A DNA stretch of 35,599 bases from positions 1-35,599 of the forward strand of contig JBDKTO010000061.1 of NCBI GenBank assembly GCA_039680175.1. Direction: 5' to 3'. The translations under genes and the position numbers were made by a program. The stretch's first letter is position 1, and each line of letters starts with the position of its first letter. Of this stretch, positions 7,378 to 34,803 are shown in pieces. This stretch comes from Veillonellales bacterium (GTDB lineage: Bacteria; Bacillota; Negativicutes; JAAYSF01). A model generated the notes under the pieces. That model was not told the DNA's origin. It saw only the letters and a program-made list of their open reading frames with translations, and did no database searches.

Positions 7378-7398
7378 CTAAGAAAGGATGTGCCTAGC

Positions 7399-7650
7399 AT
7401 GATTATTACAAGCATTGCAAAATGGGGGAATAGCCAAGGAATCCGCCTGCCCAAAGAAGTGTTAGAACAGGTGAATTTGAAGCATAAAGATAAACTATCC
7501 GTTGTTATTAATGGCGAAGAAATTATTCTAAAAAAAATCGTTGAAACAAATGAAAACAGGCTTAAAAAATTATTTGAGAATTACACAGCCGGAGATTATA
7601 TCTGCAAAGAAATAGAATGCACTCCTGCTGTTGGCAAAGAGGTTTTCTAA
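7399..7650 (+). CDS. mazE: MazE-type antitoxin (AbrB/SpoVT swapped-hairpin fold)
   Basis: An 83-residue DNA-binding antitoxin. The N-terminal swapped-hairpin signature ITSIAKWGNSQGIRLPKEVL is at residues 3-22, followed by the LSVVINGEEIILKK strand pair. The C-terminal tail (about 50-83) should wrap the toxin. A GTG at 7390 is also open, but AAAGGA ten bases before the ATG at 7399 favours that start. The stop overlaps the mazF start by one base (TAATG). Confidence 0.88.
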   Translation: MIITSIAKWGNSQGIRLPKEVLEQVNLKHKDKLSVVINGEEIILKKIVETNENRLKKLFENYTAGDYICKEIECTPAVGKEVF

Positions 7651-7991
7651 TGTTTCGACAATCGCCTGAAATAGGAGATATAATTCTTCTTAACTTTGTC
7701 CCTCAGTCCGGCAATGAAATCCAAAAAAGGCGGCCAGCACTTGTCATTTCTTGTACGTTTTTTAATGAAACTACTGGATTTTCAGTCGTCTGTCCAATAA
7801 CTTCAACCCAAAATAGCTTCCCTTTGCATATATCTTTAGACAGCAGGACAACTACCCACGGCGATATCTTAATCGAACAGCTAAAATCATTGGATTATAA
7901 TGCACGTTCATGGTCTTTTTTAGAAAAAGCACCAAACGACATCTTAGATCGTGCTATAGATTTAGCCAAAAACTATATAATAGGTAAATAA
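7650..7991 (+). CDS. mazF: MazF/PemK-type endoribonuclease toxin
   Basis: A 113-residue mRNA interferase. The family core is visible: GDIILLNFVPQSGNEIQKRRPALVIS at the N-terminus with the catalytic Arg region, then VVCPITS and the later DILIEQLKSLD segment. The start is the ATG overlapping the mazE stop, which gives coupled translation. A terminator follows at once. Both genes look intact. Confidence 0.9.
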   Translation: MFRQSPEIGDIILLNFVPQSGNEIQKRRPALVISCTFFNETTGFSVVCPITSTQNSFPLHISLDSRTTTHGDILIEQLKSLDYNARSWSFLEKAPNDILDRAIDLAKNYIIGK

Positions 7992-11486: not shown

Positions 11487-14400
11487 CTCCCCCTCCCACA
11501 TAATCCTGCAAGGCCAGCACATACACCAGCCTGCGCTCCCGGACAAAAGTCATTACATTCAATACTTCTTGAACAGTGTCCATGGAAGTCAGGCAGGCAA
11601 TAGCGTGTTCCACCGTTGCCCGGCGAATTTTGTAGCCGTCCCGCTGAGGTTCTCTGCCATGAGTCAGCGTGTTAACAACCATATTGATTTTACCGGTTTT
11701 AATCATTTGAATGATATCCGGTTTATGTTCATGTACCTTCTGCACCGTATCGACAACAAGACCGATGGATTGTAAATACCGGGCCGTTCCGCCGGTAGCC
11801 ACAATATGATATCCCAGTTCGGCAAATCCTTTTGCCAATTCACCGGCTTCCGCTTTATCTTTATCCGCCACCGTAAAAAGAATCGTTCCCTGTTCCGGTA
11901 CGTTCATGCCGGCAGCGGTAAGCGCTTTATATAAGGCCCGGGCATAATAATAATCTATGCCCATAACTTCACCGGTTGATTTCATCTCCGGCCCAAGGGA
12001 GATATCGACTTGCTGCATTTTCGCAAAAGAGAAAACAGGTGCTTTTACTGCAATATAAGGTTTAGGCGGCAATAAACCGGATTCATATCCCAGGGAGCGC
12101 AATGTTTTCCCCATAGCAACCCGGGTCGCAACATTAACCATAGGAATATCGGTTACTTTGCTGAGAAAAGGAATCGTCCGGCTGGAGCGTGGGTTCACCT
12201 CAATTACATAAACAACTTCATCCACAACTACATATTGAATATTAATCAGGCCTTTTACCTTTAACCCTAAAGCCAGCCGTTTTGTATAATCCACAATTGT
12301 CTGAATGACTTTTTCCGACAGCGACTGGGGAGGATACACCGCAATGCTGTCGCCTGAATGTACACCGGCCCGTTCTACGTGTTCCATAATTCCCGGAATT
12401 ACTACGTCCTCCCCATCCGCTATGGCGTCTACCTCTACTTCTGTTCCCTGCATATAGCGATCTACCAGGACAGGATGTTCGTGGGAAGCTTTCACTGCAC
12501 GGGTCATATAATCTTTGAGTTCTGCCTCATTATAAACGATTTCCATCGCCCGGCCCCCCAGCACGTAGGAAGGCCGCACGACTACCGGATAGCCGATTTT
12601 TGCGGTTTCGTCAACAGCATCTTCCCCATTGGTAACCGTTACCCCTTTAGGGCGGGGTATATTGCTTTTTTCCAGCAGCTCATCAAATTTTTCCCGGTCT
12701 TCTGCCCGATCAATATTCTCCACACTGGTTCCCATAATCTTTACCCCGGCTTCAGCCAGAGATTCAGCAAGGTTAATAGCTGTCTGTCCGCCAAACTGGA
12801 CGATAACCCCTTCCGGTTTTTCTTTATCGATAATGTTTAATACATCCTCGGTTGTCAGCGGTTCAAAATACAGCCGATCCGACGTATCAAAATCGGTACT
12901 TACCGTTTCCGGATTGTTATTTACAATTATCGATTCAATACCCATTTGCCGCAAGGCCCATACCGAGTGAACCGAACAATAGTCAAACTCAACGCCCTGG
13001 CCGATGCGAATCGGGCCGGACCCCAATACCATCACTTTGCGATGAGAAGTAACCTGAACCTCATCTTCCTGAGCATACGTAGAATAGTAATAGGGTGTGG
13101 CAGCTTCAAATTCAGCAGCGCAGGTATCCACCATTTTATAACAAGGCATAACATTCTGCTGCTTTCTCAATTTCCTGATATCAACGGTTTCCTGCGACAC
13201 CAATTCAGCGATAGTCTGATCGGCAAATCCCTTCTTCTTGGCTTGCAGCATAAGCTCCGCGGTAAGCGGTTCTGCCGACAGCCGTTTTTCCATATTAATA
13301 ATAGTAAGTATCTTCTCTAAGAAAAATCGATCAATGCCGGTTATCCCATGAATCTCAACAAGAGAAATTCCCCGCCGTAAGGCTTCGGCTACCACAAACA
13401 GCCGTTCATCATTGGCCACCGTCAGCTTCTCATGAATTTGTTCGGTAGTAAGCTTGGCGATTTCAGGAATAGAAAGATGGTGCAAGCCGATTTCCAATGA
13501 CCGTACAGCTTTTAGTAAAGCCGCTTCAAAGCAGCGGTCAATGGACATGACTTCACCGGTGGCTTTCATCTGCGTACCCAGTATACGGTCGGCAAACATA
13601 AATTTATCAAACGGCCAGCGAGGAAATTTGACAACTACATAATCCAAGGCAGGTTCGAAACAAGCCATGGTCTTTTTCGTCACCGCATTTACGATTTCGT
13701 CCAGATTATAGCCGATAGCGATTTTACTGGCGACTTTGGCAATGGGATAGCCTGTGGCTTTGGACGCCAAAGCGCTGGAACGGCTGACACGGGGATTTAC
13801 TTCAATAACATAATATTGATCGCTGTCAGGGTTCAGAGCGTATTGAGCATTACAACCGCCCTCTATTCCCAATTCCCGGATAATTTTTAAAGAGGCTCCG
13901 CGAAGCATTTGATATTCGTGGTCTGTCAGCGTTTGCGACGGTGCCACCACGATACTGTCGCCGGTGTGAATTCCTACCGGATCAATGTTCTCCATATTAC
14001 AAACAGTGATGCAGTTATCAGCAGCATCCCGCATCACTTCATATTCAATCTCTTTCCAGCCGGCCACGCTGCGTTCCACCAGCACCTGACCGATCATGCT
14101 GTATTTCAGGCCCCGATTTACTACATCGACTAAATCAGCCTCATTATCTACAATGCCGCCGCCGGTTCCGCCCAAGGTATAGGCCGGACGGACAATAATC
14201 GGGTAACCGATTTGTTTGGCAAACTCCCTGGCGCTCTCGATATCTTCAACAATCGTACTTTCCGGAATCGGTTGATCCAGTTTCTGCATTGTTTCCTTAA
14301 AGAGTTCCCGATCTTCGGCCTTTTTGATTGCTTCCAAAGAAGTCCCCAGCAATTCCACGTTATATTTTGCCAATACACCCCGTTCAGCCAGTTTTACTGC

Positions 14401-15761: not shown

Positions 15762-17047
15762 GCAACCACCTCACCATTTTCCATAATCACTTTACCGCCG
15801 ACAATAGTGGCCACCGCTTTCCCCTTTAATCGTTTCCCCAGGAAAGGTGTAGATTTCCCTTTTGTATAAAAAGTATCACTATTTACTATCCATTCCTTAT
15901 CCGGGTCAATAACGGTTATGTCCGCCGCGGCGCCCACCTTCAATACTCCGGCCTCAATCCCCAGGATCCTGGCCGGTGCAGTTGACATCTTGTAAATCAA
16001 TTCCGGCAGAGTAAACTCTCCCGTATGGTACAAACCGGTCAACACAACCCCCACTGCAGTTTCCAAGCCGGAGAAGCCGCTTGGCGCGAACGGGTACTCC
16101 TGATCTTTTTCTTCAAAAGCATGGGGAGCATGATCCGTCGCAATAGCGTCAATTGTACCGTCCTTCAATCCGGCCCGCAGTGCCTCAACATGATCCCGGG
16201 ACCGCAGAGGCGGATTAACTTTCGTGGCAGTATCAAATCCCGTCACCGCTTCGTCGGTTAACGTAAGATGATGGGGTGTCGCCTCCGCCGTAACCTTGAC
16301 CCCCCGCTTTTTGGCCTGACGAATCAATTCTACCGCTCCTTTACTGCTGACATGAGCAATATGGAGCGAAGCTCCGGTATATTCAGCCAATAAAATATCC
16401 CGGGACACCGCAATATCTTCCGCTACCGAAGGACGCCCCTTAATTCCCAGCATGGCGGAAACAGCGCCTTCATGCATAAAGCCCTCACCGGCCAGAGCTT
16501 CGTCCTCCGCATGGGAAATAATCGGGCGGCCAAACGCGGTGATATATTCCATCGAGTTCCGAAGCAGACGGGCATTATCAACGTAATGCCCGTCATCGGA
16601 AATAGCCACGGCTCCGGCAAGCAGCATATCGCCAATTTCAGCCATTTCCTTGCCTTCTTCCCCTTTGCTTAAAGCGCCAATAACTTTTAAATTTACTACG
16701 CCCTCGCTTTGTCCCCGCTGCAGCAGGCCAGCTACCAAAATAGAACTGTCCACAACCGGCTTCGTATTCGGCATACAGGCGACAGTAGTAAAGCCGCCGG
16801 CCGCTGCCGAACGGGTTCCTGACGCAACATCTTCTTTGGCCTCAAGCCCCGGCTCACGCAAATGCACATGCATATCTACAAGCCCGGGGGCAACGACAAA
16901 TCCCCTGGCGTCATAAACTTGCGCCCCGTCGGCCGGCAAATCTGCTCCCATGGCGGTAATACGGCCAGCTTCAATGAGAATATCCCCAATATGATCAACA
17001 TTTTCCACCGGGTTTATAATCCGGCCACCCTTAAGCAGTAATTTCAA
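15758..17047 (-). CDS. pyrC: Dihydroorotase
   Basis: Cyclises carbamoyl-aspartate to dihydroorotate. The 429-residue type I enzyme of the amidohydrolase fold shows zinc ligands in [11 protein letters not shown], and [25 protein letters not shown] and IATDHAPH. Translation begins at TTG (17047) with GGGAGGG upstream, so the gene overlaps pyrB by 17 bases. Confidence 0.96.
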
Positions 17048-22013: not shown

Positions 22014-22214
22014 TCAATAATGTTTTCCCTCATATCGGCAGGCTGCATTGATCTGCAGCCGCTGCTTTTCCGGAATTGTGTCCCAGGCTTCCCATGCAGC
22101 TGCATAATATTCACGGAGTATCGTTTCTTTTTCTTTCTCAGCCATTGGCGGTGGAGCAACGACATAAACCGTAATATTGCCAAATTTATATGTTGCATCA
22201 TACTTGCGTTCCAT
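22014..22214 (-). CDS. Small 66-residue protein next to the serine recombinase
   Basis: A soluble protein beginning MERKYDATYKFGNITVYVVAPPP, followed by a charged helical region (EKEKETILREYYAAAWEAW). A good ribosome site, GAGGTGATC, precedes the ATG. I recall short proteins with the pattern V-APPPM-EEE beside serine recombinases in Clostridia and Bacilli, so it may be a recombination accessory factor, but this is by resemblance only. It is divergent from recombinase 1 and is probably part of the same element. Confidence 0.6.
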   Translation of the reverse strand: MERKYDATYKFGNITVYVVAPPPMAEKEKETILREYYAAAWEAWDTIPEKQRLQINAACRYEGKHY

Positions 22215-22274
22215 CTGATCACCTCAGTATAACTTATGAGGCGGTTCGATGGGGACAACACTTTATATTGACTG

Positions 22275-22302: not shown

Positions 22303-22353
22303 ATACTGTTAAATTCTGCCAAAGATTAAATGTGTCCCTAAGAGGTGATCGCT

Positions 22354-23922
22354 GTGGACAATAAACGGAATACCAGCCTCAAAGACCTTGAGCCGGCTTG
22401 CTTCTATCTTCGCAAATCCCGTGAAGATCAGGAAGCGGAAGCCCGTGGCGAAGGAGAAACTTTAGCTAAGCATAAAAAAGCGCTTTTCCGCCTTGCCAAA
22501 GAATACGGCGTAGCTATTACGAAGGTGTTTGAAGAAATAGTTTCGGGGGAAAGCCTCATCCACCGACCGGAAATGCTGGAATTACTTAAAGAAGTCGAAA
22601 GCGGCAGCTGGAAATCGGTATTTTGCATGGATATTGACCGGCTTGGCCGCGGCGGCATGCAGGACCAGGGACTTATCATTGAAACGTTTAAAAATACAAA
22701 TACTAAAATAGTTACGCCGCGCAAAATATACGATTTAAACGATGAATTTGACGAAGAATACACCGAATTTGAGGCGTTTATGGCCCGAAAAGAATTGAAG
22801 ATCATTACCCGGCGCCTGCAAGGCGGTCGGCTGCGCTCCGTTGAGGACGGCAACTATCTTGGCACTGTGCCGCCATACGGCTACCAGATTGAGAAAAAGG
22901 ATCGCAGCAGGTATTTGGTTAAAAATCCGGAGCAAAGTACCGCCGCCGCGTTAATTTGGAAACTATACCAACAGGAAGATATGGGGACTAACAAAATTGC
23001 CAATGAATTAAACCGGCTCGGCTATGTTTCATACACGGGGAAAAACTGGTCTGCTTCTTCTATCCTGTCGATGCTGAAAAATCCGGTCTATGCCGGTGTT
23101 ATAGCCTGGAAGAAAAAAGAACAAAAAAAATCTGCTGAACCCGGAAAAAAGCGGGATACCAAATCCCGGCCCCGCAGTGAACAAATTTGGATATATGATG
23201 CTCATGAACCTTACATTTCCCTTGATGAATTTCACAAGGTTCAGGATAAACTAAAAAAGAAGTACCATCCTCCATTTCAGCTTATTAACGGTTTAGCCAA
23301 TCCGCTTGCCGGACTAATCAAGTGCGAACTGTGCGGCCTGTCCATGGTTTACAGGCCATACTCCAACCAAAGAGCCCACCTCATATGCTACAACAGACAT
23401 TGCCATAACAAAAGCAGCCGTTTTGAATATGTAGAGGATGCGGTTATAAGCGGTCTTGAACATTGGCTCAATCAGTACCGTGCCCAATGGGACGCCAATC
23501 CCCAGGCAAAAAAAAATAATAACATGGCCTGCTTAAAAGAAAAAGAACTAAAAAAGCTGCAGAAAGAACGTAATGAGCTAGCCCGGCAAAAGGACAATTT
23601 ACACGATCTGCTTGAAAAAAAAGTCTATGATATAGAAACCTATCTGGACAGGTCAAAAAAGCTTTCCGAACGAATCACAAACGTTGACAATGCCATATCC
23701 GAAACTGAGACCAGCCTGGCAAATGAAATCATGCGCCGAAAAGCCCAAAAAAGCATTATGCCGAAAGTAAAAAATCTTCTGGACATTTATCGAAAGGCGA
23801 CAAGTCCGGAAGCAAAAAACAAACTACTGAAGTCAGTTTTGGAGTATGCGACATACTTAAAAGAGCCAAATCAAAAAGGGCGAGACTTCTCGCTCGTGCT
23901 GCACCCTAAGCTGCCGCAGTGA
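22354..23922 (+). CDS. Large serine recombinase 1
   Basis: A 522-residue site-specific integrase/excisionase. The N-terminal resolvase domain (about 10-150) has the catalytic serine in CFYLRKSREDQ and the Arg-rich DIDRLGRGG. Next come the recombinase domain with PPYGYQI, a zinc-ribbon (CELCGLSMVY ... CYNRHCHNKSS) and a coiled-coil (about 400-470). The GTG at 22354 follows AGAGGTGATC, which is itself the ribosome site, so the GTG at 22345 is not the start. Its stop lies 27 bases from the sigK fragment. It differs clearly from recombinase 2. Confidence 0.9.
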   Translation: MDNKRNTSLKDLEPACFYLRKSREDQEAEARGEGETLAKHKKALFRLAKEYGVAITKVFEEIVSGESLIHRPEMLELLKEVESGSWKSVFCMDIDRLGRGGMQDQGLIIETFKNTNTKIVTPRKIYDLNDEFDEEYTEFEAFMARKELKIITRRLQGGRLRSVEDGNYLGTVPPYGYQIEKKDRSRYLVKNPEQSTAAALIWKLYQQEDMGTNKIANELNRLGYVSYTGKNWSASSILSMLKNPVYAGVIAWKKKEQKKSAEPGKKRDTKSRPRSEQIWIYDAHEPYISLDEFHKVQDKLKKKYHPPFQLINGLANPLAGLIKCELCGLSMVYRPYSNQRAHLICYNRHCHNKSSRFEYVEDAVISGLEHWLNQYRAQWDANPQAKKNNNMACLKEKELKKLQKERNELARQKDNLHDLLEKKVYDIETYLDRSKKLSERITNVDNAISETETSLANEIMRRKAQKSIMPKVKNLLDIYRKATSPEAKNKLLKSVLEYATYLKEPNQKGRDFSLVLHPKLPQ

Positions 23923-23943
23923 CATTTACTGATAAACACATGA

Positions 23944-23957
23944 GGGGAACTCATTCC
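23944..23957. other. Candidate attachment-site junction of element 1 in sigK
   Basis: Sigma-K homology ends here. On the minus strand the junction reads GGGAA-TGAG-TTCCC, a small inverted repeat centred on the last sigK codon, and it contains AATGA (23951-23955). The recombinase 1 stop is 27 bases away, the usual closeness of a serine-integrase site to its gene. The exact crossover bases cannot be fixed without the other junction. Confidence 0.5.
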
Positions 23958-24042
23958 CTTCCTTATCAACACCGATGGGATCATACAAACTTACTTCGGC
24001 CCGGGTTCTGCGGGTGCTTCGCAGATGCATTAGAATTTCATT
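23950..24042 (-). pseudogene. sigK: Internal fragment of sigK (sigma-K), 31 codons, flanked by two recombinase genes
   Basis: On the minus strand an in-frame segment reads [13 protein letters not shown] then [18 protein letters not shown]. This is sigma-K sequence from the region 2.4 end onward (about residues 113-143 of B. subtilis SigK, which reads ENEILMHLR...DPIGQDKEGNE). Homology stops at both ends: before it lie the last codons of recombinase 2, and after GNE the frame runs into FPSCVYQ and a stop. The right end begins with AAT-GAA at 24042-24037. AATGA is, from memory of the skin-element work, the five-base crossover sequence in B. subtilis sigK at the same codons. The left end is AAT-GAG. 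I read it as a middle exon of a sigK split by two elements. Exons 1 and 3 are not in the window. Confidence 0.85.
24038..24042 (-). other. Candidate skin-type crossover core AATGA (element 2 / sigK junction)
   Basis: AATGA on the minus strand encodes the Asn-Glu where sigK homology begins, and its TGA is also the stop codon of recombinase 2. Position and sequence match the B. subtilis skin crossover site. The bases just outside read CGTTGCGTGAGAATAGCA, loosely like sigK codons for RCIE, as expected for half-site similarity. Confidence 0.6.
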
Positions 24043-25798
24043 TGCTATTCTCACGCAACGGCTCAGCAGTATTCCCCTCAGTTTCAGTAGGTCCATCGCC
24101 GCTCTCCGAAAGGAATTCATCCGGCGGCAATTCAATTCCAGCGCTGTCGTCAGAGCCAAATAAATATACATGAACATTCTCGCCGTCCCAAACTACCTTT
24201 TTCACAAAGGTGCGTAAGGCGGCGCGTTTTTGTTCAACGCTCATATCGTCTATCGTATCCCTAAAGGTTGTGAGCATCTGACGGATAATATCAAACTCAA
24301 TATTAGAAAGGGCATGACTGGCTGTAAGGCTCTCCATTTCAGAAATATGGCTTTTCATTATTTCGCCCTTGCCGTGCAGCTCATCAATTTGTTTAACAAT
24401 ATAACTCTCGGCTGCTGTGCCCGCCGCTTTAGTGAGTGACGATACCAGCGCGGTAATCTCTTTTTCATTCTCCGCAAGCACACCGCGCAGGCGATCTAAA
24501 TTATCGTCATATTCTTCACGATTGCCTTCCAGTTGTTTTTTCCCGAGTTCAAGCTGACGGATAAATTCTGAGCTGTCTGCGCCAAGTCTTTTTATTTCTT
24601 CACACACAACTCTGTCAAGCATATTTCCATTAGCGTTCTTCATCTGACAGACATGAGAACGACTCTTTTCCTTCATGGCACAAAGATAAGAATAAATAAA
24701 CTCTCCGTGTGCATCTAGGCGTTTACTTAGTTTAGGACGCATATAGTCACCGCAGGTGCAAAATAAAAGACCGGAAAGCAGCGCGACATTGCTTCTGGGT
24801 TTACGGAAGGACTTAGACCGATTCTGTTCTAAATATTCCTGTACCGTAATCCATTCCGTACCTTTGATTAGACCTATGTGCTTCCCCACAGCCACAATCC
24901 ATTCGTCCATGGGGCGTATTTGGTTAGCCTTACCGGACTTTTGAATCGTACGGTTATAGGCCATGATGCCATGCGTGCTGTCAAAATCTTCTTTTTCGGC
25001 AAACAATTCTACCTCGTTTTCGACTAGGTAACGATAAGCATCTTCATCAGCAATCATATATACCGGATTGGTAAGAATATTACGGAGAGCAAAGCGGGTA
25101 AACAATTTGTTGTTTTTCGTTTTATAACCGTTTTGAATGAAGTACGTTTCCGTTTTTGTCAGTGAATTTGTTTCCAAAAACACTCTATAAATCTGTTTAA
25201 TGATTTCTGCTTCTTCGGGAATGAGTGTTAACTTACAGGCTTTTTTTGTTTTTCCTTCTACCGTTATCTTCTCCACTGATTCAGACTTATACCCTGTGGG
25301 CGTTCTGCCACCAAGCCAACGGCCGGTTTTGGCTAACTCGTGCATATTATCACGGATACGCTCAGCTATCGTTTCACGCTCTAGCTGCGAAAATACAGAG
25401 GAAATATACATCATGGCTCTACCCATAGGAGAAGAAGTATCAAATTGTTCCTTAATAGAAATAAAGGAAACATTCAAACCATCCAATTCCTCAATCAGCT
25501 TGGCAAAGTCACCTATGTTACGGCTTATGCGGTCAAGGCGATAGCAGACGATAGCAGAAAAGGTATTTGCCCTTGCATCAGCCATCATCTTCTTAAAGTG
25601 AGGACGCTCCGTATTTTTTCCCGAAAATCCTTCATCTTCATATATTAAGATACTTTCGTCATTGCAATTAGGGTAATGGGCACGAATATACTGCCTGCAT
25701 AGCTCGACTTGATTTTCGATACTTTCGCCCTTCCCTGTAAATTTAGATTTACGAGAATAAATGGCAATCTGTTCCGTATTTTCTTTCGTTTGCTTCAC
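24038..25798 (-). CDS. Large serine recombinase 2 (candidate sigK-intervening-element recombinase)
   Basis: 586 residues. The N-terminal resolvase domain shows [20 protein letters not shown] with the catalytic serine, and [22 protein letters not shown]. Next are a recombinase domain ([13 protein letters not shown]), a zinc-ribbon-like segment ([10 protein letters not shown], later SHVC) and a C-terminal coiled-coil. It is closer in style to the [11 protein letters not shown] recombinases of clostridial skin and transposon elements than to recombinase 1. Its stop codon lies in the AATGA junction with sigK, so it sits at the very end of its element. In a sporulating host it would be expected to excise the element in the mother cell; that role is inferred. 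Confidence 0.9.
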
Positions 25799-26954: not shown

Positions 26955-27728
26955 CTACCATTTCAAAATTGTCATTGCTGAGCCATCAACATAACTGCCG
27001 CGAGTGCATTCATAAACCTTTTGTTCCGGTACTGTACGGAGAAGCCAATTTGGCGAATCACATTCCACGAAATTACTCTGCTGCTTTTTGTTGATTATCA
27101 TTTCATGCGCTACTGTTTCACCTGGCAAAGAGGCATGCCCGCCCCAAAACCCCTTTGCGGCCCGTGAAACCTTGTAACTGGTAACTTTTCCGTGTTTTGA
27201 AAAAACTACAATACAAGGCTTTTGCGTTAATTCCACTAAACGATAGCTGCAAGCCTGTTTTGATACCATAAACTCAATTGCCAAACCTGCAATGAGAGCA
27301 AAATCAATCTCAGCTCCCAACATCAGCAACAAAAAACGGTCCTGCGGCATTAGCAATTCAACAGCGAAACGGTTTGCCTCCGCTTCGCGCCCTTTATGCT
27401 CCATACTGGTTTCTGAGACGTTACACTTGATACCAAGCTGGCCATCTTTTGAAAAACTCGGGGGATGATTTAGAAAGTAATGCCCCAGCTCATGTGCAAA
27501 CGTAAAGTTGTGGCGAGCGGTATTATCAATGCGCGTGTTTACAAGAATGCCGCGCTGGTCTCCCTTAAACACCAGCATCCCGTCCCATTTATCGGGGTAG
27601 TCTTTTTGTTTGTATTTGACACCTTCACTGTCGGCAATAGCACCGAGCGACAGAGCTGGAATATCACCGACTTTTTTATCCGATAAAACCTGCTTTGCCT
27701 TTGCAACGGGGTCAGCTATTGCAATCAT
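26955..27728 (-). CDS. ImmA/IrrE-family metallopeptidase
   Basis: A zinc peptidase of the family that cleaves repressors, as ImmA does to ImmR in ICEBs1. The site FAHELGHYFLNH is at about residue 77 from my start, and the downstream Glu is in EAEANRFAVELLMP. About 257 residues, longer at the C-terminus than ImmA. The frame is open to 27788, but the ATG at 27728 lies in the end of hsdS (17-base overlap) and gives a natural start (MIAIADPVAKAKQVL); its ribosome site is weak, consistent with coupling. No HTH repressor partner is visible nearby, so its target may be within the restriction operon or elsewhere. Confidence 0.82.
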   Translation of the reverse strand: MIAIADPVAKAKQVLSDKKVGDIPALSLGAIADSEGVKYKQKDYPDKWDGMLVFKGDQRGILVNTRIDNTARHNFTFAHELGHYFLNHPPSFSKDGQLGIKCNVSETSMEHKGREAEANRFAVELLMPQDRFLLLMLGAEIDFALIAGLAIEFMVSKQACSYRLVELTQKPCIVVFSKHGKVTSYKVSRAAKGFWGGHASLPGETVAHEMIINKKQQSNFVECDSPNWLLRTVPEQKVYECTRGSYVDGSAMTILKW

Positions 27729-29310
27729 CCCCAAACATTTCTTTGATATCGCGCACGGCTTCATCCGAAAGCCCTTGCATTTCACCACGCGCGGCGATTC
27801 CGATTTCTAATTTGTCCTCGCCTTGTTGCGGGAACGGCACAATATTGGATGCTGTCCGCTTTACAGAAATATCCTTCGCTGCTTTCAGTTCGTCGCACAG
27901 CGCCATCAGCTCGTCCACTTTGGCGACGATGCGCTGCTGCTCGGCAAGAGGCGGAAGGGGAAGAGGCAAGTGAAAAAATATATCTTTATTTAAATGAGGA
28001 ATTGCTGCACCCTTTTTTGAGTTTCTAAGCAAATCCTTGTGTAATTCGATGAACCTAAGAATAAACGGCAACCATAATGCTTCTACAATATGAAGCACTT
28101 TGAATGTACTCCCCATGTAACCTTCCATAGGAGAAATAAAAACTTCACCAGAATTTTCGCCATCTACCAAGATAAGTTTAGTTCCTTCTTTTATGAATTT
28201 ACCCTCATCAACTATCGCGGGCGTTTTTTGTCCTCTTAATACTTTTGCCTCAAGATAAGGCAATGGGTTTCCGCTTGCTTTTTCCCCTTCTAATAAAGAG
28301 ACAACTCCACCCAGCCTGCACCACATCCACCCATCCGGCAAATCGTATGGGATTTCGTCCTCTGCAATAGGCGGCAGGGGCTTTTCTTTTTTGATTTTGC
28401 CTTCCCTGACAAGCTGTGCTTTTTCCTGCTGAATGCGTTTTAGCAATTCCACTACTGGTTCGTCATGGACATTTTGCGGCACAAGTTTGCCCTGCACCGC
28501 TGCTTGCAGGATGGACTTCGGCAAATATTCGGCAAAGCGGCTTTCCAGCGCGTCCAGCTCTTTTTCCGCTGCTTCCAGTTCGTCGCATAACGTCATCAGT
28601 TCGTCCACTTTGGCGACGATACGCTGTTGCTCAGCAAGAGGCGGGATGGGAATCAACATAGTCTCAACCCCTCCCACGCGGAGGTGTTGTACAGTCAACC
28701 CCACTGGCTTATCTTGAACATATTCCATCAGGTTTGGATTTTGAAGAAAAAACAAAATGAACTTTGGAACAATAGTCTCTGGCATCAATCTAATTAGCAT
28801 TAACCGTTGACCAAGACAAACTCTTATATTTTGAGGCAACATGCAAACTTCCCCCATTGGGGCTTCTCTGGTAATAATAATGTCGCCCGCTTCAGGAATG
28901 CAGCGAGCACTCCACCGTTCAAATGTATTCTCGGTAACAAATTTTAAGCCTTCCGGTTGAAATTTCCCATTGCGTACATTCGATGTGCGCATAAGTGGTA
29001 TACCTGATTTAGAATAAGGCGCAGTTTTATTGTGGCAGTCAACGACCAAACCAGAGCATTGCATTAAAGTTGCCCATTTCCAACCATCCGGCAAATCAGA
29101 AACATCATCTGGAATCGTCTGTTTTTTTTGCTTTAATTGCTGAATTCTTGCTTCGTCTGCATTAGGATATTCGGACTCAAGAAGTTTCTCTCTTTTTTGA
29201 GCAATTCTATCTAATAATATGGATGCCGGTTCGTCGTGGACGTTTTGCTGCACAAGTTTGCCCTGCACCGCCGCTTGCAGGATGGATTGCCGGAGTTGGG
29301 CAGCTTTCAT
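27712..29310 (-). CDS. hsdS: Type I restriction-modification specificity subunit
   Basis: 532 residues. Recognises the bipartite DNA target and joins HsdM and HsdR. Two target-recognition domains are separated by conserved helices: SILQAAVQGKLV at residues 9-20 and again at 266-277, and PPLAEQQRIVAKVDELM at 223-239 and again at 453-469. Each recognition domain starts after an L-P-DGW motif. The start overlaps the hsdM stop by four bases. The tail after residue 480 is unusual and ends inside the immA start. Confidence 0.92.
   Translation of the reverse strand: MKAAQLRQSILQAAVQGKLVQQNVHDEPASILLDRIAQKREKLLESEYPNADEARIQQLKQKKQTIPDDVSDLPDGWKWATLMQCSGLVVDCHNKTAPYSKSGIPLMRTSNVRNGKFQPEGLKFVTENTFERWSARCIPEAGDIIITREAPMGEVCMLPQNIRVCLGQRLMLIRLMPETIVPKFILFFLQNPNLMEYVQDKPVGLTVQHLRVGGVETMLIPIPPLAEQQRIVAKVDELMTLCDELEAAEKELDALESRFAEYLPKSILQAAVQGKLVPQNVHDEPVVELLKRIQQEKAQLVREGKIKKEKPLPPIAEDEIPYDLPDGWMWCRLGGVVSLLEGEKASGNPLPYLEAKVLRGQKTPAIVDEGKFIKEGTKLILVDGENSGEVFISPMEGYMGSTFKVLHIVEALWLPFILRFIELHKDLLRNSKKGAAIPHLNKDIFFHLPLPLPPLAEQQRIVAKVDELMALCDELKAAKDISVKRTASNIVPFPQQGEDKLEIGIAARGEMQGLSDEAVRDIKEMFGDDCNS
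27881..28645. repeat. Long direct repeats inside hsdS
   Basis: A block of about 74 bases coding the conserved helix at 27881-27954 recurs at 28571-28644 with few differences. A second block of about 58 bases at 28457-28515 recurs at 29228-29286. Recombination between copies here, or with another hsdS, could change specificity. Confidence 0.7.
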
Positions 29311-30764
29311 AACGCATCCCCCTGTTCCATGGCGGTGGTGATGCGCTCCAATATGTTTTCAATCCGTGCGGAAATGGCGGCTTTCTCATTTAGATATTCC
29401 ACGATAAACTCATCAGGCGGTAGAATCTCCACTGTGTCGTGGGGAAAGCTGCAAAGGTCGAGGTTATAGTCACCGCTCGCGGCAATATCCTCAACCGGCA
29501 CATATTGTGAGACTTCACTTTCAATACGATTGTTCCACCACTCGCGTACAGGATCGAAGTGTGCGTCCAGCATAGGACGCGTTTTAGAGAAATGCTTATA
29601 GCCCGCAGGCATTTCCAGCCGGTAGAACCACACGCCTTTTGTCGGACGGCCCTTGCGGAAAAACAGCAGATTTGTGTTGATGTTGGTGTACGGCGCAAAT
29701 ACGTCTTTCGGCAACCGCACGATGGTGTGCAGGTCGTTTTCTTCCAACAGTTTTTTCTTGATGGCAGATTTAACGCCTGTACCGAACAGGAAGCCATCCG
29801 GCAAAACAAGGCCGCACCGACCGCCGTCTTTTAACAGCGCCATGATATGCACAAGGAACAGGTCGGCGGTTTCCGAGTTCCTCAATTCAGCGGAAACGGA
29901 CTGCGAAATAACCTTTTCTTCTGCGCCGCCAAACGGCGGATTGGTTACAATTACATGCACTCTGTCCTTTTCAGTATACTCGCCAACCGGATGGATAAGT
30001 GTGTTTCCGTGCGTGATATCCGGTACATCAATGCCATGTGCAATCAGGTTGGTCACACACAGCAGATATGGAAACGGTTTTTTTTCAATACCCTTGATGT
30101 TGGATTGCAGCATCCGGTATTCTTCGGTCGTTTCGATATTGTGGCGGTCAATTACACTGGTGAGAAAGCCGCCTGTGCCACACGCCGGGTCGAGCACCAC
30201 TTCGTTAAGTTTTGGATCTATCTGCTCAACAATAAAGTGAGTGACGGGACGTGGGGTGTAAAATTCGCCAGCCTTGCCTGCGCTTTGCAGATCTTTAAGC
30301 ATGGTTTCATACAGGCCGTTAAACAGATGCGCGGTTTTCACTTCGTCGAAGTTGATATCACCGTTTATCTTGTTCACAACCTGTCGGAGCAATGTGCCGG
30401 ACTTCATAAAGTTGTTGACGCCTTCCATTACGTTGCGGATAAGCCATTTGCGCTTTTTGGTTTCGTTTTTGGTATCCATAGACGAATCCAGATTACGTAA
30501 AGCAATAAACATCTTGTCCACATGCGAAAGAAGCGCATCGCCCGTAATGCCCTCGGAATCGTCGGCCCATGTGCTCCAGCGATATTCGCTGGGGATGACC
30601 GGCTCGTATTCGGTTTCGGTAAGTTCCCATTCCTGTTCCTTATAATCAAACGCCTTAAGGAACAGCATCCATGTAATCTGCTCGATATACTGCGCGTCGC
30701 CGTTGATACCGGCATCTATGCGCATGATATCCTTTAAGGCTTTGGTTGTGTTTGATACTGCCAT
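29307..30764 (-). CDS. hsdM: Type I restriction-modification DNA methyltransferase subunit
   Basis: A 485-residue N6-adenine methyltransferase. The N-terminal helical domain (TWMLFLKAFDYKEQEWE) is followed by GEFYTPRPVTHFIVE, the SAM-binding motif DPACGTGGF (192-200) and the catalytic motif NPPFGG (275-280). It methylates host targets together with HsdS. It lies 18 bases after hsdR. Confidence 0.95.
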   Translation of the reverse strand: MAVSNTTKALKDIMRIDAGINGDAQYIEQITWMLFLKAFDYKEQEWELTETEYEPVIPSEYRWSTWADDSEGITGDALLSHVDKMFIALRNLDSSMDTKNETKKRKWLIRNVMEGVNNFMKSGTLLRQVVNKINGDINFDEVKTAHLFNGLYETMLKDLQSAGKAGEFYTPRPVTHFIVEQIDPKLNEVVLDPACGTGGFLTSVIDRHNIETTEEYRMLQSNIKGIEKKPFPYLLCVTNLIAHGIDVPDITHGNTLIHPVGEYTEKDRVHVIVTNPPFGGAEEKVISQSVSAELRNSETADLFLVHIMALLKDGGRCGLVLPDGFLFGTGVKSAIKKKLLEENDLHTIVRLPKDVFAPYTNINTNLLFFRKGRPTKGVWFYRLEMPAGYKHFSKTRPMLDAHFDPVREWWNNRIESEVSQYVPVEDIAASGDYNLDLCSFPHDTVEILPPDEFIVEYLNEKAAISARIENILERITTAMEQGDAL

Positions 30765-30782
30765 ATTCGGTTCCTCCGTTTA

Positions 30783-33134
30783 TTATGCTGCATAGAGTTC
30801 GTGTGTAAGCTCTTTCATCGCTTGTTCGAAATTGGTTTTTCCCTTGAAAATCTTGTTTACGATATAAATGGGAGAACCGAAATCCTTGATGGGGTTGACT
30901 TTGAGGATGTCCATGCTTTCTAAGTCAGCGACGCCGGAATCAGCGTATTTCTCAAGCAGAGCATCCAGCACAGAAGCGGCTAGCTCGCCATACTTAGCGA
31001 AGTAGTTTCGCTTTTTCACGTTGTTGGCCCGTTCTCTGCGGGTCAGCGGCTTCTGATCAAAAGCCACATGGCAAAGCAAATCGAACGGGTCAAACTCCTG
31101 CCCGATTTGTTCTTGCAGTTCCTCAATTAAGATGCCTTGCGCTGCCAGCTCATCCAAAATGGCTTGCTTGCGCTCGGCGCTGTTCCACTCAGTAAGGAAG
31201 TCATCTAGCGTGGCGTAGCGGTCACGCACATTGCGGCGGGTGTAGTCGGTCAAAGATTCGGTAATCAGCTTGCCGTCCTTATCGATATATTGCACACGCT
31301 GTTTAAGTACGGTCACTTCAACATCATGAACATAGTATTTCTGCCTGCGGCCTCCCGGTGGATCAACAGCGGGTGGCGGTTCCTCGGCTCCATCGCCATC
31401 ATCTTCCGGCGGGTCATCCGGCAACGGCGGTATTTCTCCATCCGACCCTGGCGTAAACTCGGAGTCCTGCTCCACAGGCCCGTCAAAGTCCGGGTCGGCA
31501 AAAAGGCGCGTTGCGTTGCGAAAATCAAAGATAGTAAAGAACATTTTACCCAAGTCTTCGCGGACACGGGTGCCGCGTCCGATAATCTGCTTAAATTCCG
31601 TCATACTGTTGATGTTGGAATCCAGCACGATAATTTTCACCATCTGAGCGTCAACACCTGTGGTAAGCAGCTTGGATGTAGTAACCAACACAGGGTATTT
31701 GCTGGACACATCGCGGAAGTTATCAAGCTGCTTTTTGCCGATATCGTCATCGCCTGTAATGCGCATGACATATCGTTCATCTTCACCAACAAGATCACGG
31801 TTTTCGTTGACAAGTGCTTGCCGCATACGATCGGCATGTTCGGTATCAACACAGAAGAAGATAGTCTTGTCAAACCGGCTATTGTGCTTTCGCAGATAGT
31901 TGGAAACAACCTTAGCAACCATTTTAGTACGCTGTTCCAACACCAGTTCGCGGTCAAAGTCGCTGGCATTATATTCTCTATCTTCAATTACATTGCCGAA
32001 ACGGTCTGTCTGCCCGACATACGGGCGGAAACCCTCGGCATCCTTGTCCAGCAGCACACGGATGACACGATAAGGTGCAAGAAAACCATCATCTATGCCT
32101 TCTTTCAGCGAATAGGTATAGATGGGCTTGCCAAAATAGTCGATGTTGGATACGTCTTTATCTTCTTTGGGTGTAGCCGTCAAGCCAATTTGTGTCGCTG
32201 GCTTAAAATAATCCAGTATTTCGCGCCACTCGCTGTTTGCCCTTGCGCTGCCTCGATGACATTCATCCACGATGATAAGGTCAAAGAAATTTTGACTGAA
32301 TTGCTTAAAAACGTTTTTATCACCATCTCCGGTCAATCCCTGATACAGCGCGAGATAGATTTCATAAGATGTGTCAATCTTCCGGTTACGGATGATGGTC
32401 ATTTTATCTTTGAACGGCGCAAAATCGTTTACATAGGTTTGGTCGATCAGCGCATTACGGTCTGCGAGAAACAGAATGCGCTTCTTAACACCTGCCTTCC
32501 ACAGACGCCAAATGATTTGGAAAGCAGTATATGTTTTACCCGTACCTGTAGCCATGACAAGCAGCACGCGGTTTTGTCCGCGCGTTACAGCATCAACAGT
32601 AAGGTTGATTGCGTTAAGCTGGTAATAACGCGGAGGCTTGTCCTCCCGTTCCATGTAATAAGGCTGGGCTATAATTTGTTCTTGAGTATCGTCAATTTTG
32701 TTGATTTGCTTATACGCGGCCCAGAGTATTTCCGGCGATGGGAACTCGTCAAGGTTGATGATATTTTCACTAGAATCAATCCGATTGTGGAATGTGAACC
32801 CATCCCCATTAGATGTGAAAACAAACGGTATCATCATGAGCTGGGCGTAATCCAACGCCTGTTGCATGCCATCTCCGATGGCATGGTTATTATCTTTGGC
32901 TTCAACAATGGCAAGAGGAATGTGCGGTTTGTAGAACAAAACGTAGTCTGCACGCTTGGCCTCTTTACGCTTATAGCTTCCACCACGGGCGATAATACGT
33001 CCTTTGGTGATTGCGTATTCTTCGCGTATTTGAGGCACTGCCCAGCCCGCAGCTTTAATAGCCGGAGTGATATATTGCGTTCTTATCTCCTGTTCGGTTA
33101 ATTGACTTTTGTTCACTCCAATCCCCCATTCCAC
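30783..33134 (-). CDS. hsdR: Type I restriction endonuclease, motor subunit
   Basis: 783 residues. The N-terminal PD-(D/E)XK nuclease has D63 in KRADYVLFY and E78-A-K80 in IVEAK. The SF2 translocase has Walker A MATGTGKTY (194-202), IIVDECHRG (288-296) and GLTATPKED (318-325). After a Pro/acidic linker (about 580-615) comes the C-terminal helical domain that docks on HsdM. Start: the ATG at 33134 has GAGGAG only four bases away, and a GTG at 33116 is an alternative. The R-M-S order with downstream immA and nuclease genes suggests one five-gene defence operon. Confidence 0.93.
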   Translation of the reverse strand: MEWGIGVNKSQLTEQEIRTQYITPAIKAAGWAVPQIREEYAITKGRIIARGGSYKRKEAKRADYVLFYKPHIPLAIVEAKDNNHAIGDGMQQALDYAQLMMIPFVFTSNGDGFTFHNRIDSSENIINLDEFPSPEILWAAYKQINKIDDTQEQIIAQPYYMEREDKPPRYYQLNAINLTVDAVTRGQNRVLLVMATGTGKTYTAFQIIWRLWKAGVKKRILFLADRNALIDQTYVNDFAPFKDKMTIIRNRKIDTSYEIYLALYQGLTGDGDKNVFKQFSQNFFDLIIVDECHRGSARANSEWREILDYFKPATQIGLTATPKEDKDVSNIDYFGKPIYTYSLKEGIDDGFLAPYRVIRVLLDKDAEGFRPYVGQTDRFGNVIEDREYNASDFDRELVLEQRTKMVAKVVSNYLRKHNSRFDKTIFFCVDTEHADRMRQALVNENRDLVGEDERYVMRITGDDDIGKKQLDNFRDVSSKYPVLVTTSKLLTTGVDAQMVKIIVLDSNINSMTEFKQIIGRGTRVREDLGKMFFTIFDFRNATRLFADPDFDGPVEQDSEFTPGSDGEIPPLPDDPPEDDGDGAEEPPPAVDPPGGRRQKYYVHDVEVTVLKQRVQYIDKDGKLITESLTDYTRRNVRDRYATLDDFLTEWNSAERKQAILDELAAQGILIEELQEQIGQEFDPFDLLCHVAFDQKPLTRRERANNVKKRNYFAKYGELAASVLDALLEKYADSGVADLESMDILKVNPIKDFGSPIYIVNKIFKGKTNFEQAMKELTHELYAA

Positions 33135-33315: not shown

Positions 33316-34803
33316 TTAACACTTGTCCTTAGAATTTACGAGATTACATTTCCGTTCAAGAACCATTTTTTTATTTAGTTTTGCAATATTACAAAAATAC
33401 TCATTAACTGCTAACGGGTCTCCTAAAGGGTGTTCATTTGCGTTTCTAACCATACACATAGTACAAAACTCATTTTCTGGACATTTAATACATTTAGGGA
33501 AATCCCGTTTGCGTAAGCTTCTTAAATATTGTACCTTTATTGAATTGTTCCAAATATCGTTGAGAGATGTTTCATGTACGTTGCCTACAACGTAATCCTG
33601 CCAACCAGCACATGGATATACATTTCCATTGTCTGCTATACATATAGATGAATAACAAACACTACAGACAATGTCATCTGGATTCATACTTTTTTTCTTT
33701 TCAGCTTCCTTTTCCATTAGCTCTAAATATTTGGGTTCATTAATACTCCTTTGGTTAATAACCTTCTTGACATCATTTATAGACAAACGGTTACTCAGAT
33801 TTTGTGTTGTATGGTTATATCTTGCTATGATGACATAATCACTTCCAACATTAATATTGTGTGTTTTCCCCCAATCTGTAACATCAATATAACAGTTAAT
33901 ATTTTGCTTTATTATTGGACAACTAATTTGCAAAGGTATATCATTTTCCTTCAGTTTTAATATTGCATTTTTAGTTTTTTCAAAACTTCCTTTTATTTGG
34001 GTTATTGCATCGTGAATATTGGAATCCATTGAATATAATGATGTTTGAACACTCAAGAGGGGATTTTTTTTCATTTCTTCGATGATATCTTTATTTAGTA
34101 AAGTTAAATTACTAAGAACATTTACGGAAAAGTTGTATTCATTACATTTTTTCAGGAAATCGATAAAGTGATGGTGCATCATGGGTTCACCGCCACTTAG
34201 CGTTACATGCAACAAATTCATTTCTTTACATTGTTCTAAAATATTATAAAACAAATCAGGATCGATATGATTTACCTTGTTATCATGTGGGATATAACAA
34301 TGTACACATCTTTCGTTGCATTTGCTCGTAATTTCTATGTGTAAATTTGTAAGCTGCGGTTCGTTTTTAAAGTATTCATCAAAAAATTCTTGTGTAGATT
34401 TTTCAAAACCCTTAGTCGATGAACAATCCTTTTTTTCGCTTTTTGGTTCCACTACCTTGTATGAAAACACCGAGTCTTTTTCATTGCATTCTTGCAAAGT
34501 TTCGCCAGATACAACAAACCCGTCCAACTCAAGTAAGCAATAAAATTCTTTAGCATCGACCTTAATTGTTTCAATGTCCGCATTTGTAAATTGTATGCTT
34601 ATTTTTTTAGCGAGATCATCAAGCGTCTGTGGTTTCTTACCTAAAACAGATAAAAACACCGCTCCGCTCTGCGATACAATTTTGTCTCCAATATCATCTC
34701 TGTCATTATTCGCTTGTCTGTACCCGAAATTTCTATTGTCTGTTATATAGCCAAAAAACTTATAGTTTCTGAATATAACATTAGATTTTTGTTTGAAATA
34801 CAT
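33316..34803 (-). CDS. Radical SAM/SPASM peptide maturase with N-terminal PqqD-like (RRE) domain
   Basis: A 495-residue RiPP-modifying enzyme. Residues about 35-105 (GDKIVSQSGAVFLSVLG ... EFYCLLELDGFVV) look like a PqqD-type recognition element that binds a leader peptide. The radical SAM core has C162-x3-C166-x2-C169 (CNERCVHC) and GGEP at 204-207. The C-terminal SPASM region has Cys 380, 383, 388, 398, 438, 441, 447, 450 and 471 (for example CPENEFCTMC), enough for two auxiliary Fe-S clusters. AAGGAG lies seven bases before the ATG. The architecture is like Cys-rich-peptide maturases of Clostridia. A 38-residue precursor gene lies 71 bases upstream. The AT-rich base use differs from the chromosome at left. 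Confidence 0.9.
   Translation of the reverse strand: MYFKQKSNVIFRNYKFFGYITDNRNFGYRQANNDRDDIGDKIVSQSGAVFLSVLGKKPQTLDDLAKKISIQFTNADIETIKVDAKEFYCLLELDGFVVSGETLQECNEKDSVFSYKVVEPKSEKKDCSSTKGFEKSTQEFFDEYFKNEPQLTNLHIEITSKCNERCVHCYIPHDNKVNHIDPDLFYNILEQCKEMNLLHVTLSGGEPMMHHHFIDFLKKCNEYNFSVNVLSNLTLLNKDIIEEMKKNPLLSVQTSLYSMDSNIHDAITQIKGSFEKTKNAILKLKENDIPLQISCPIIKQNINCYIDVTDWGKTHNINVGSDYVIIARYNHTTQNLSNRLSINDVKKVINQRSINEPKYLELMEKEAEKKKSMNPDDIVCSVCYSSICIADNGNVYPCAGWQDYVVGNVHETSLNDIWNNSIKVQYLRSLRKRDFPKCIKCPENEFCTMCMVRNANEHPLGDPLAVNEYFCNIAKLNKKMVLERKCNLVNSKDKC

Follow-up and report, generated by a model that had tools for sequence, protein, structure and literature searches.

The sigK gene of the Veillonellales bacterium studied here is interrupted twice, at two sites lying 89-94 nt apart (sites A and B), and its middle exon is flanked by two convergent large serine recombinases, rec1 and rec2, each belonging to a different recombination system. 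The window analysed, 35,599 nucleotides long, is the whole of contig C61 of the source genome (G000), a draft of 4.08 Mb in 121 contigs rated 100% complete with a contamination value of 4.33. We are highly confident that sigK is doubly split in this genome, and the presence of two separately keyed modules appears likely. The whole explanation, in which two independent large serine recombinase modules occupy sigK, both must act for the gene to be rebuilt, and the site-B step in G000 would proceed by inversion, seems probable from the sequences compared below.

Three parts of sigK on three contigs

A genome-wide search of G000 with the TIGR02846 profile (spore_sigmaK; family cut-off 298.65 bits) located sigK in three places with complementary profile ranges, each on a different contig. 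The N part lies on C97 (8881-9219; profile 2-115) and the C part on C67 (85566-85844; profile 134-226). The middle exon is encoded on the minus strand of the window, where the profile match spans 23947-24060 (profile 107-142, E 1.6e-12) and the exact cores of the two sites delimit 94 nt at 23950-24043 (residues NEILMHLRS...DKEGNE), in frame with the other two parts. The original prediction of a sigK exon on the minus strand between two facing recombinases was thus confirmed. Its description of these recombinases as unrelated was only partly right, as they form different systems with their own cores but share Resolvase, Recombinase and Zn-ribbon domains, which makes them distant relatives.

No intact sigK was found in the whole genome with this profile, and no match exceeded 298.65 bits. 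The only fuller match, on C74, reached 256.8 bits and probably corresponds to SigE by our reading; this and the remaining matches, all below the cut-off or partial, were read as other sigma factors, and an intact sigK elsewhere was rejected. When the parts were compared with the intact gene of a relative (G002), pN/pS per exon ranged from 0.04 to 0.11 for G000 and from 0.03 to 0.11 for a second genome, G032, synonymous sites being near saturation in both comparisons. The complementary ranges of the parts, the low pN/pS of each of them and the occurrence of the same layout in two other genomes (see below) argue that the middle exon is not a chance match.

Attachment cores and in silico joining of the parts

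The junctions of the site-A and site-B copies were aligned side by side to define the cores. Site A has the core AAATG at the ENE codons, with inverted arms ATAGC/GCTAT; in G000 the core of attR-A is found at 24039-24043 (minus strand) and its partner at C97 9204-9208. Site B has the core AATGAR (AACGAR in a few cases) at the KEGNE codons, also with inverted arms; here the core of attL-B, AATGAG, lies at 23950-23955 (minus strand) and its partner at C67 85821-85826. The inner arm of attL-B, TTATCAGT (23928-23935, minus strand), is 14 nt from core B, and the partner arm of attR-B, ACGGATAA (C67 85839-85846), is 12 nt from its core. Among the 25 site-B genomes, 21 have the left arm TTATCTGT with at most one mismatch and a spacing of exactly 14 nt to the core (the misfits being G003, G044, G317 and G307). 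Of the 18 right junctions fetched, 17 have the right arm ACAGATAA under the same tolerance, at a spacing of exactly 12 nt to the core (misfit, G044). The G000 arms on C61 and C67 carry one mismatch each.

A scripted join of the three G000 parts at their cores left both the site-A and the site-B joint in frame and produced a 236-aa ORF that aligns without gaps to the intact SigK of G002, with 90.9% identity over 231 aa. The parts of G032, joined likewise, gave 243 aa with 89.2% identity to the same protein. The expectation that the remaining ends of SigK would be found elsewhere in the genome, with no intact copy, was borne out by the N part on C97 and the C part on C67, both of which end exactly at att cores, and so was the claim of a double interruption, with two recombinase systems, each with its own core, three complementary parts and no intact copy found.

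Element A and recombinase 1

The recombinase of element A, rec1 (586 aa; 24038-25798, minus strand; Pfam PF00239, PF07508 and PF13408), has a stop codon that overlaps the middle exon. Element A sits between the sigK halves, the N part abutting its left end on C97 and the middle exon its right end on C61; the middle of the element is unassembled. According to the junction alignment its right part extends from 24044 to the contig end at 35599, and its left part, which starts at position 9209 of C97, carries a left-end HTH regulator, an AlbA-type protein, a Fic protein and a small ORF that is a candidate directionality factor (RDF-A candidate). The AlbA and Fic cargo shows 92-94% aa identity with G032, G050 or G313. 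Three ORFs at 27712-33134 (minus strand) were named by eye as type I-like restriction-modification cargo, and a radical SAM/SPASM protein (Pfam) encoded at 33316-34803, possibly a peptide-modifying enzyme, also belongs to the cargo.

Relatives of rec1 were examined by a rec1-alignment scan of named genomes, from which the best 80 of 450 relatives were taken. In 72 of these best 80 of 450, sigK starts from about residue 110 at the 3' end of rec1, and in the other 8 there is no sigK at this end or the sequence ends too soon. The 72 loci indicate that rec1 is a skin-lineage recombinase common in Clostridia. The RDF-A candidate, an ORF of 55-58 aa, was found in all five Negativicutes copies of element A with enough sequence; in G000 it corresponds to the end of a frame spanning C97 13744-14067 (minus strand). 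Relatives of this candidate occur in 22 of the best 80 of 450 named rec1-like loci, many of which are incomplete, and the left-end HTH regulator is present in all six Negativicutes copies and in 8 of the best 80 of 450 named loci.

Between G000 and G032, pS was 0.33 for rec1 and 0.21 for the Fic cargo, as against 0.74-0.78 for the housekeeping genes carB, pyrB, dnaE and polA; for rec2 it was 0.81-0.95 against four genomes (0.87 for G032). The low values of rec1 and Fic in comparison with the housekeeping genes and rec2 indicate that element A moved recently and that site B is old, so that the site-A key is the newer one. The order of events first envisaged, with a second element entering later at the downstream site, is thereby reversed, with site B the older of the two layers and element A having arrived later. 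A phage origin of element A was rejected, since the phage matches of rec1 are all distant, with none of the 137 records reaching 60%.

In two loci, L109 (Pectinatus brassicae, G159) and L112 (G045), the element-A recombinase is followed by other DNA past the same junction. Neither genome has a full sigK match over E 1e-10, both are without spoIVA and yabG, and the rec1 of G159 contains one internal stop. Element A can thus exist outside sigK, as in G159 and G045.

Site B: recombinase 2 and a linked small ORF

The site-B recombinase, rec2 (525 aa; 22345-23922, plus strand; Pfam Resolvase, Recombinase and Zn-ribbon), adjoins the sigK 5' part or the middle exon in all 25 genomes of the class that carry it, at a distance of about 0.9 kb in G310; 20 of these loci were inspected directly and five more were judged by position. 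Near rec2, a 66-aa ORF (RDF-B candidate; 22017-22214, minus strand) belongs to a family whose members measure 62-66 aa (76 aa in G034) across site-B elements. The family is undescribed, as no Pfam, NCBIfam or PHROG entry matched it, and no member was found in the phage records searched. All 12 site-B elements of the initial set contain the ORF, its distance from rec2 being several kb in some (17 kb in G032). Of the 25 rec2 genomes, 22 have it, and the contigs of the remaining three stop less than 0.9 kb past rec2. A search of 380 genomes of the class found it in 25, of which 22 also carry rec2; the genomes having the ORF without rec2 are G021 and G312, where it forms relics 8-12 kb from sigK (the G312 copy being partial and with a stop), and G323.

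Upstream of the RDF-B candidate there is a promoter-like motif, GTCC-N14-CATA (22235-22256, minus strand), whose CATA we take to resemble the -10 of sigma-E/K promoters. The motif precedes the ORF in all 12 elements of the first set, compared with 2 of 363 other ORFs of the same contigs in a control search that allowed spacings of 13-18, and in 6 of 10 further RDF-B ORFs, the exact motif being absent from the other 4 (18 of 22 in total). Its linkage, its size and this promoter-like motif together make the 66-aa ORF a likely candidate for the site-B directionality factor.

With a best match of 53%, rec2 is nearer to phage integrases than rec1. On a viral contig from IMG/VR (L265), a recombinase resembling rec2 (59% over 339 aa) and a weak RDF-B-like ORF lie about 4 kb apart, which hints that the site-B module may have come from a phage.

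Chromosomal junctions at site B in G000

No discrete element separates the sigK halves at site B in G000, where core chromosome continues past both junctions. The chromosome joined to attL-B fills positions 1-22016 of the window, and the order away from attL-B is rec2, the RDF candidate, a TPR protein, an RNase H-like protein, an M20 peptidase, the pyr operon and tyrS (names mostly by eye, TPR by Pfam). Two small overlapping ORFs at 7390-7991 have, by eye, the look of a MazE/MazF-type toxin-antitoxin pair. On C67, attR-B is preceded by an AMP-ligase, an oppA-like gene, slt, coaE, mutM, polA, pyk and dnaE, all named by eye except for the AMP-binding domain (Pfam).

Together, attL-B and attR-B break a conserved polA-pyr cluster reciprocally. 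In 10 of the 11 relatives fetched (G032, G058, G055, G002, G019, G007, G034, G048, G006 and G025) the polA side and pyrB are adjacent on one strand and separated by about 0.8 to 26 kb; in the exception, G018, polA and pyrB are 0.43 Mb apart, and sigK and pyrB are on the same strand. Among the eight complete or near-complete relatives, seven have sigK on the opposite strand to pyrB and 0.5-1.0 Mb away, G018 differing again. In six of them the direct distance is 0.61-0.99 Mb; in G006 it is about 0.52 Mb when measured across the contig end, provided that the contig is circular.

A single inversion with one end at a minimal site-B module and the other between the polA and pyr sides would give exactly the junctions of G000. 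The att-B sites would then be far apart and inverted as a result of a chromosomal inversion linking site B to the polA-pyr cluster, and the reciprocal break, taken with the opposite strand of sigK in relatives, suggests that sigK repair in G000 probably takes one inversion of 0.5-1 Mb and one excision. The second key in G000 is thus probably an inversion, not an excision; its inverted geometry is deduced from the relatives, the parts sitting on three contigs of a draft. As for an inversion that actually works at site B in G000, we regard it as a bold but consistent reading with an even chance of being correct. The earlier proposal that a second element calls for two excisions fits G032, in which a 38-kb insert is found on one contig, but is not supported for G000, where core chromosome lies beyond attL-B and attR-B.

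A huge skin element in the same orientation between the middle and C exons was rejected as first choice. It is disfavoured because the flanking cluster is contiguous in 10 of 11 relatives and because sigK and this cluster occupy opposite strands in 7 of 8 complete or near-complete ones. Same-strand geometry would instead split the chromosome into two circles.

Distribution among the Negativicutes

A TIGR02846 survey of 60 genomes, with categories taken from our own reading of the resulting table, found sigK over the cut-off in 14 genomes, split at site B alone in 10, split at site A in G018 and G050, split at both sites in G000 and G032, and shortened in G021; no sigK part was listed for 31. 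Among 380 genomes of the class, rec1 (E<=1e-120) was detected in 9 and rec2 in 25. The sigK 3' part directly follows rec1 in 5 of the 9 (G000, G032, G120, G018 and G313), G050 has its N part split at site A with no 3' part after rec1, and 3 of the 9 are without sigK beside rec1, namely G045, G159 and G019, the last of which has a partial rec1 copy and its own sigK intact. At the G050 loci L111 and L060, the right junction after rec1 turns into non-sigK sequence within a few bases, in a genome that is 89% complete.

The double split is not unique to G000, since two more Negativicutes genomes have it, and the three belong to three families (f1, f18 and f6). In G032 the N part is on contig C31, and the middle and C parts are on C5, 38 kb apart. 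In G120 the N part is followed by element A on C4, and C307 carries the middle exon, flanked by rec1 and rec2; its C part was not found in this 85%-complete genome. Discrete site-B inserts contained on one contig measure 38 kb in G032, 3.0 kb in G001 and 3.4 kb in G014, with a range of 2.8-3.4 kb over G003, G001 and G014. Both spoIVA and yabG scored over their cut-offs in G000, G032, G120 and G018, and neither did in G045 and G159.

Two further loci contain displaced sigK ends. In Sporomusa ovata DSM 2662 (L166) the sigK 3' part occurs twice (11748-12113 and 16714-16980), one copy being complete behind element A and the other lying 4.6 kb downstream, behind what by eye is an apparent relic of the site-B right arm. 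In G021 (L087/L266) sigK has an apparent internal deletion, and a second C-exon fragment about 6 kb downstream is followed by an RDF-B ORF; this locus is probably a decayed site-B element.

Alternative explanations

It should be considered that the double split could be real, with both modules excised as circles, and that the site-B break in G000 arose as an assembly chimera, for instance by crosswise joining of two near-identical minimal site-B modules, of which one would sit in sigK and the other next to the pyr operon. The 121 contigs of the draft and the normal, discrete site-B inserts of other genomes (38 kb in G032; 2.8-3.4 kb in G003, G001 and G014) would agree with such an artefact. 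Nevertheless, G000 has a single rec2 match (E<=1e-120), although collapsed copies would also count as one, and both false junctions would have to show reciprocity as well as att arms at the conserved spacing. Moreover, repeats usually terminate contigs rather than being read through. We consider a chimera unlikely.

A lineage in which sigK is dead, the second interruption and the chromosome rearrangement having left the strain unable to complete sporulation, would be in line with the 31 of 60 genomes without a listed sigK part (by our count) and with the occurrence of rec1 in genomes without sigK, spoIVA or yabG (G045 and G159). This is hard to reconcile with three exons that are all in frame with pN/pS of 0.04-0.11, two open recombinase ORFs, matching att cores, spoIVA and yabG above their cut-offs and a double split present in three families, and we judge it improbable. 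That the middle exon is a stray sigK fragment on mobile DNA, with a working sigK elsewhere or missed in the draft, finds some precedent in the displaced duplicate sigK ends of S. ovata and G021 but is very improbable, given that the search of this genome, rated 100% complete, turned up no intact sigK and that the N and C parts stop precisely at the two att cores and can be joined in frame.

Proposed mechanism

The mechanism proposed starts from features observed in the sequences, namely the three parts, both att pairs, the recombinases, the RDF candidates, the promoter-like motif, the reciprocal junctions and the recurrence of the arrangement. Site A would hold a recently acquired clostridial-type skin element with rec1, a left-end HTH regulator and its own RDF candidate of 55-58 aa, and site B an old Negativicutes module made up of rec2 and the 66-aa RDF candidate, preceded by a promoter-like motif similar to mother-cell promoters. 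As long as a cell is vegetative, each recombinase on its own would keep sigK split in the attL/attR state. Both reactions would be switched by the RDFs in the mother cell, where fusion of the three parts would yield the 236-aa SigK. The site-B reaction of G000 would have rec2 and its RDF flip about 0.5-1 Mb back, joining the middle and C exons with no circle released, and that of G032 would release a 38-kb circle. We infer the recombination activity, its mother-cell timing, the function of the RDFs and the inverted geometry from these arrangements. In its full form, a two-key DNA lock in which each system has its own directionality factor, plus a programmed inversion of about 0.5-1 Mb that also rebuilds the polA-pyr neighbourhood, the proposal may equally well prove right or wrong. 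Alternatively, the double split may represent an evolutionary dead end.

Comparison with known systems

In the skin element of Bacillus subtilis, the serine recombinase SpoIVCA and the small RDF Skr (64 aa) are described as restoring the interrupted sigK (PMC6957869), with the recombinase gene downstream of the sigK 5' part (PMC10747680). The systems of G000 are similar in having a recombinase and a small protein at sigK, with rec2 likewise downstream of the 5' part, and differ in that two sites are occupied at once instead of one interruption per gene. The attB sites of B. subtilis and Clostridium difficile are reported to be in different regions of sigK (PMC6957869). In C. difficile, the recombinase CD1231 is expressed from a sigma-A promoter and the small RDF CD1234 is under sigma-E/SpoIIID control (PMC5025042); CD1234 has 53 aa (PMC10747680), a size close to that of the RDF-A candidate (55-58 aa), but the element is a single insertion excised as a circle. 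CD1231 alone carries out attP x attB recombination and inverts the DNA between inverted attP and attB sites on a plasmid (PMC5025042), whereas the inversion proposed for G000 would be attL x attR, an extension of that reaction.

Island IV of Bacillus cereus biovar anthracis, described as a 22-kb insert in sigK without phage genes that is excised in sporulation, carries type I restriction-modification genes as element A does, but is presented as a single insertion, at nt 195 of sigK (PMC10745906). An Alicyclobacillus phage is given as another single sigK insertion (PMC13141910). The elements gin in gerE, SP-beta in spsM and yin in yabG possess a serine recombinase and an RDF or RDF candidate, and of the three recombinase genes of gin, GirC is the one whose product, with GirX, performs the rearrangement (PMC5595907, PMC10747680). 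They resemble the case described here in that a sporulation gene is split by a serine-recombinase element, and differ from it in being single elements in other genes. In the literature searched, which comprised open-licence PMC papers, we found no report of a doubly interrupted sigK or of a sporulation gene rebuilt by inversion.

Significance

It is debated whether single skin elements are regulators or tolerated parasites. A sigK with two independent interruptions in three families makes this question testable, key by key, and an old site B combined with a recent site A suggests that a second rearrangement can be accepted by a spore-former that already depends on one. For serine-integrase tools, the small site-B protein family offers a new RDF candidate. 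Two rearrangements, probably an excision and a very large flip of the chromosome, should precede the completion of the spore in this organism. If the site-B reaction in G000 does invert nearly a megabase, terminal differentiation would accommodate rearrangement on the scale of the genome as a routine part of assembling a gene.
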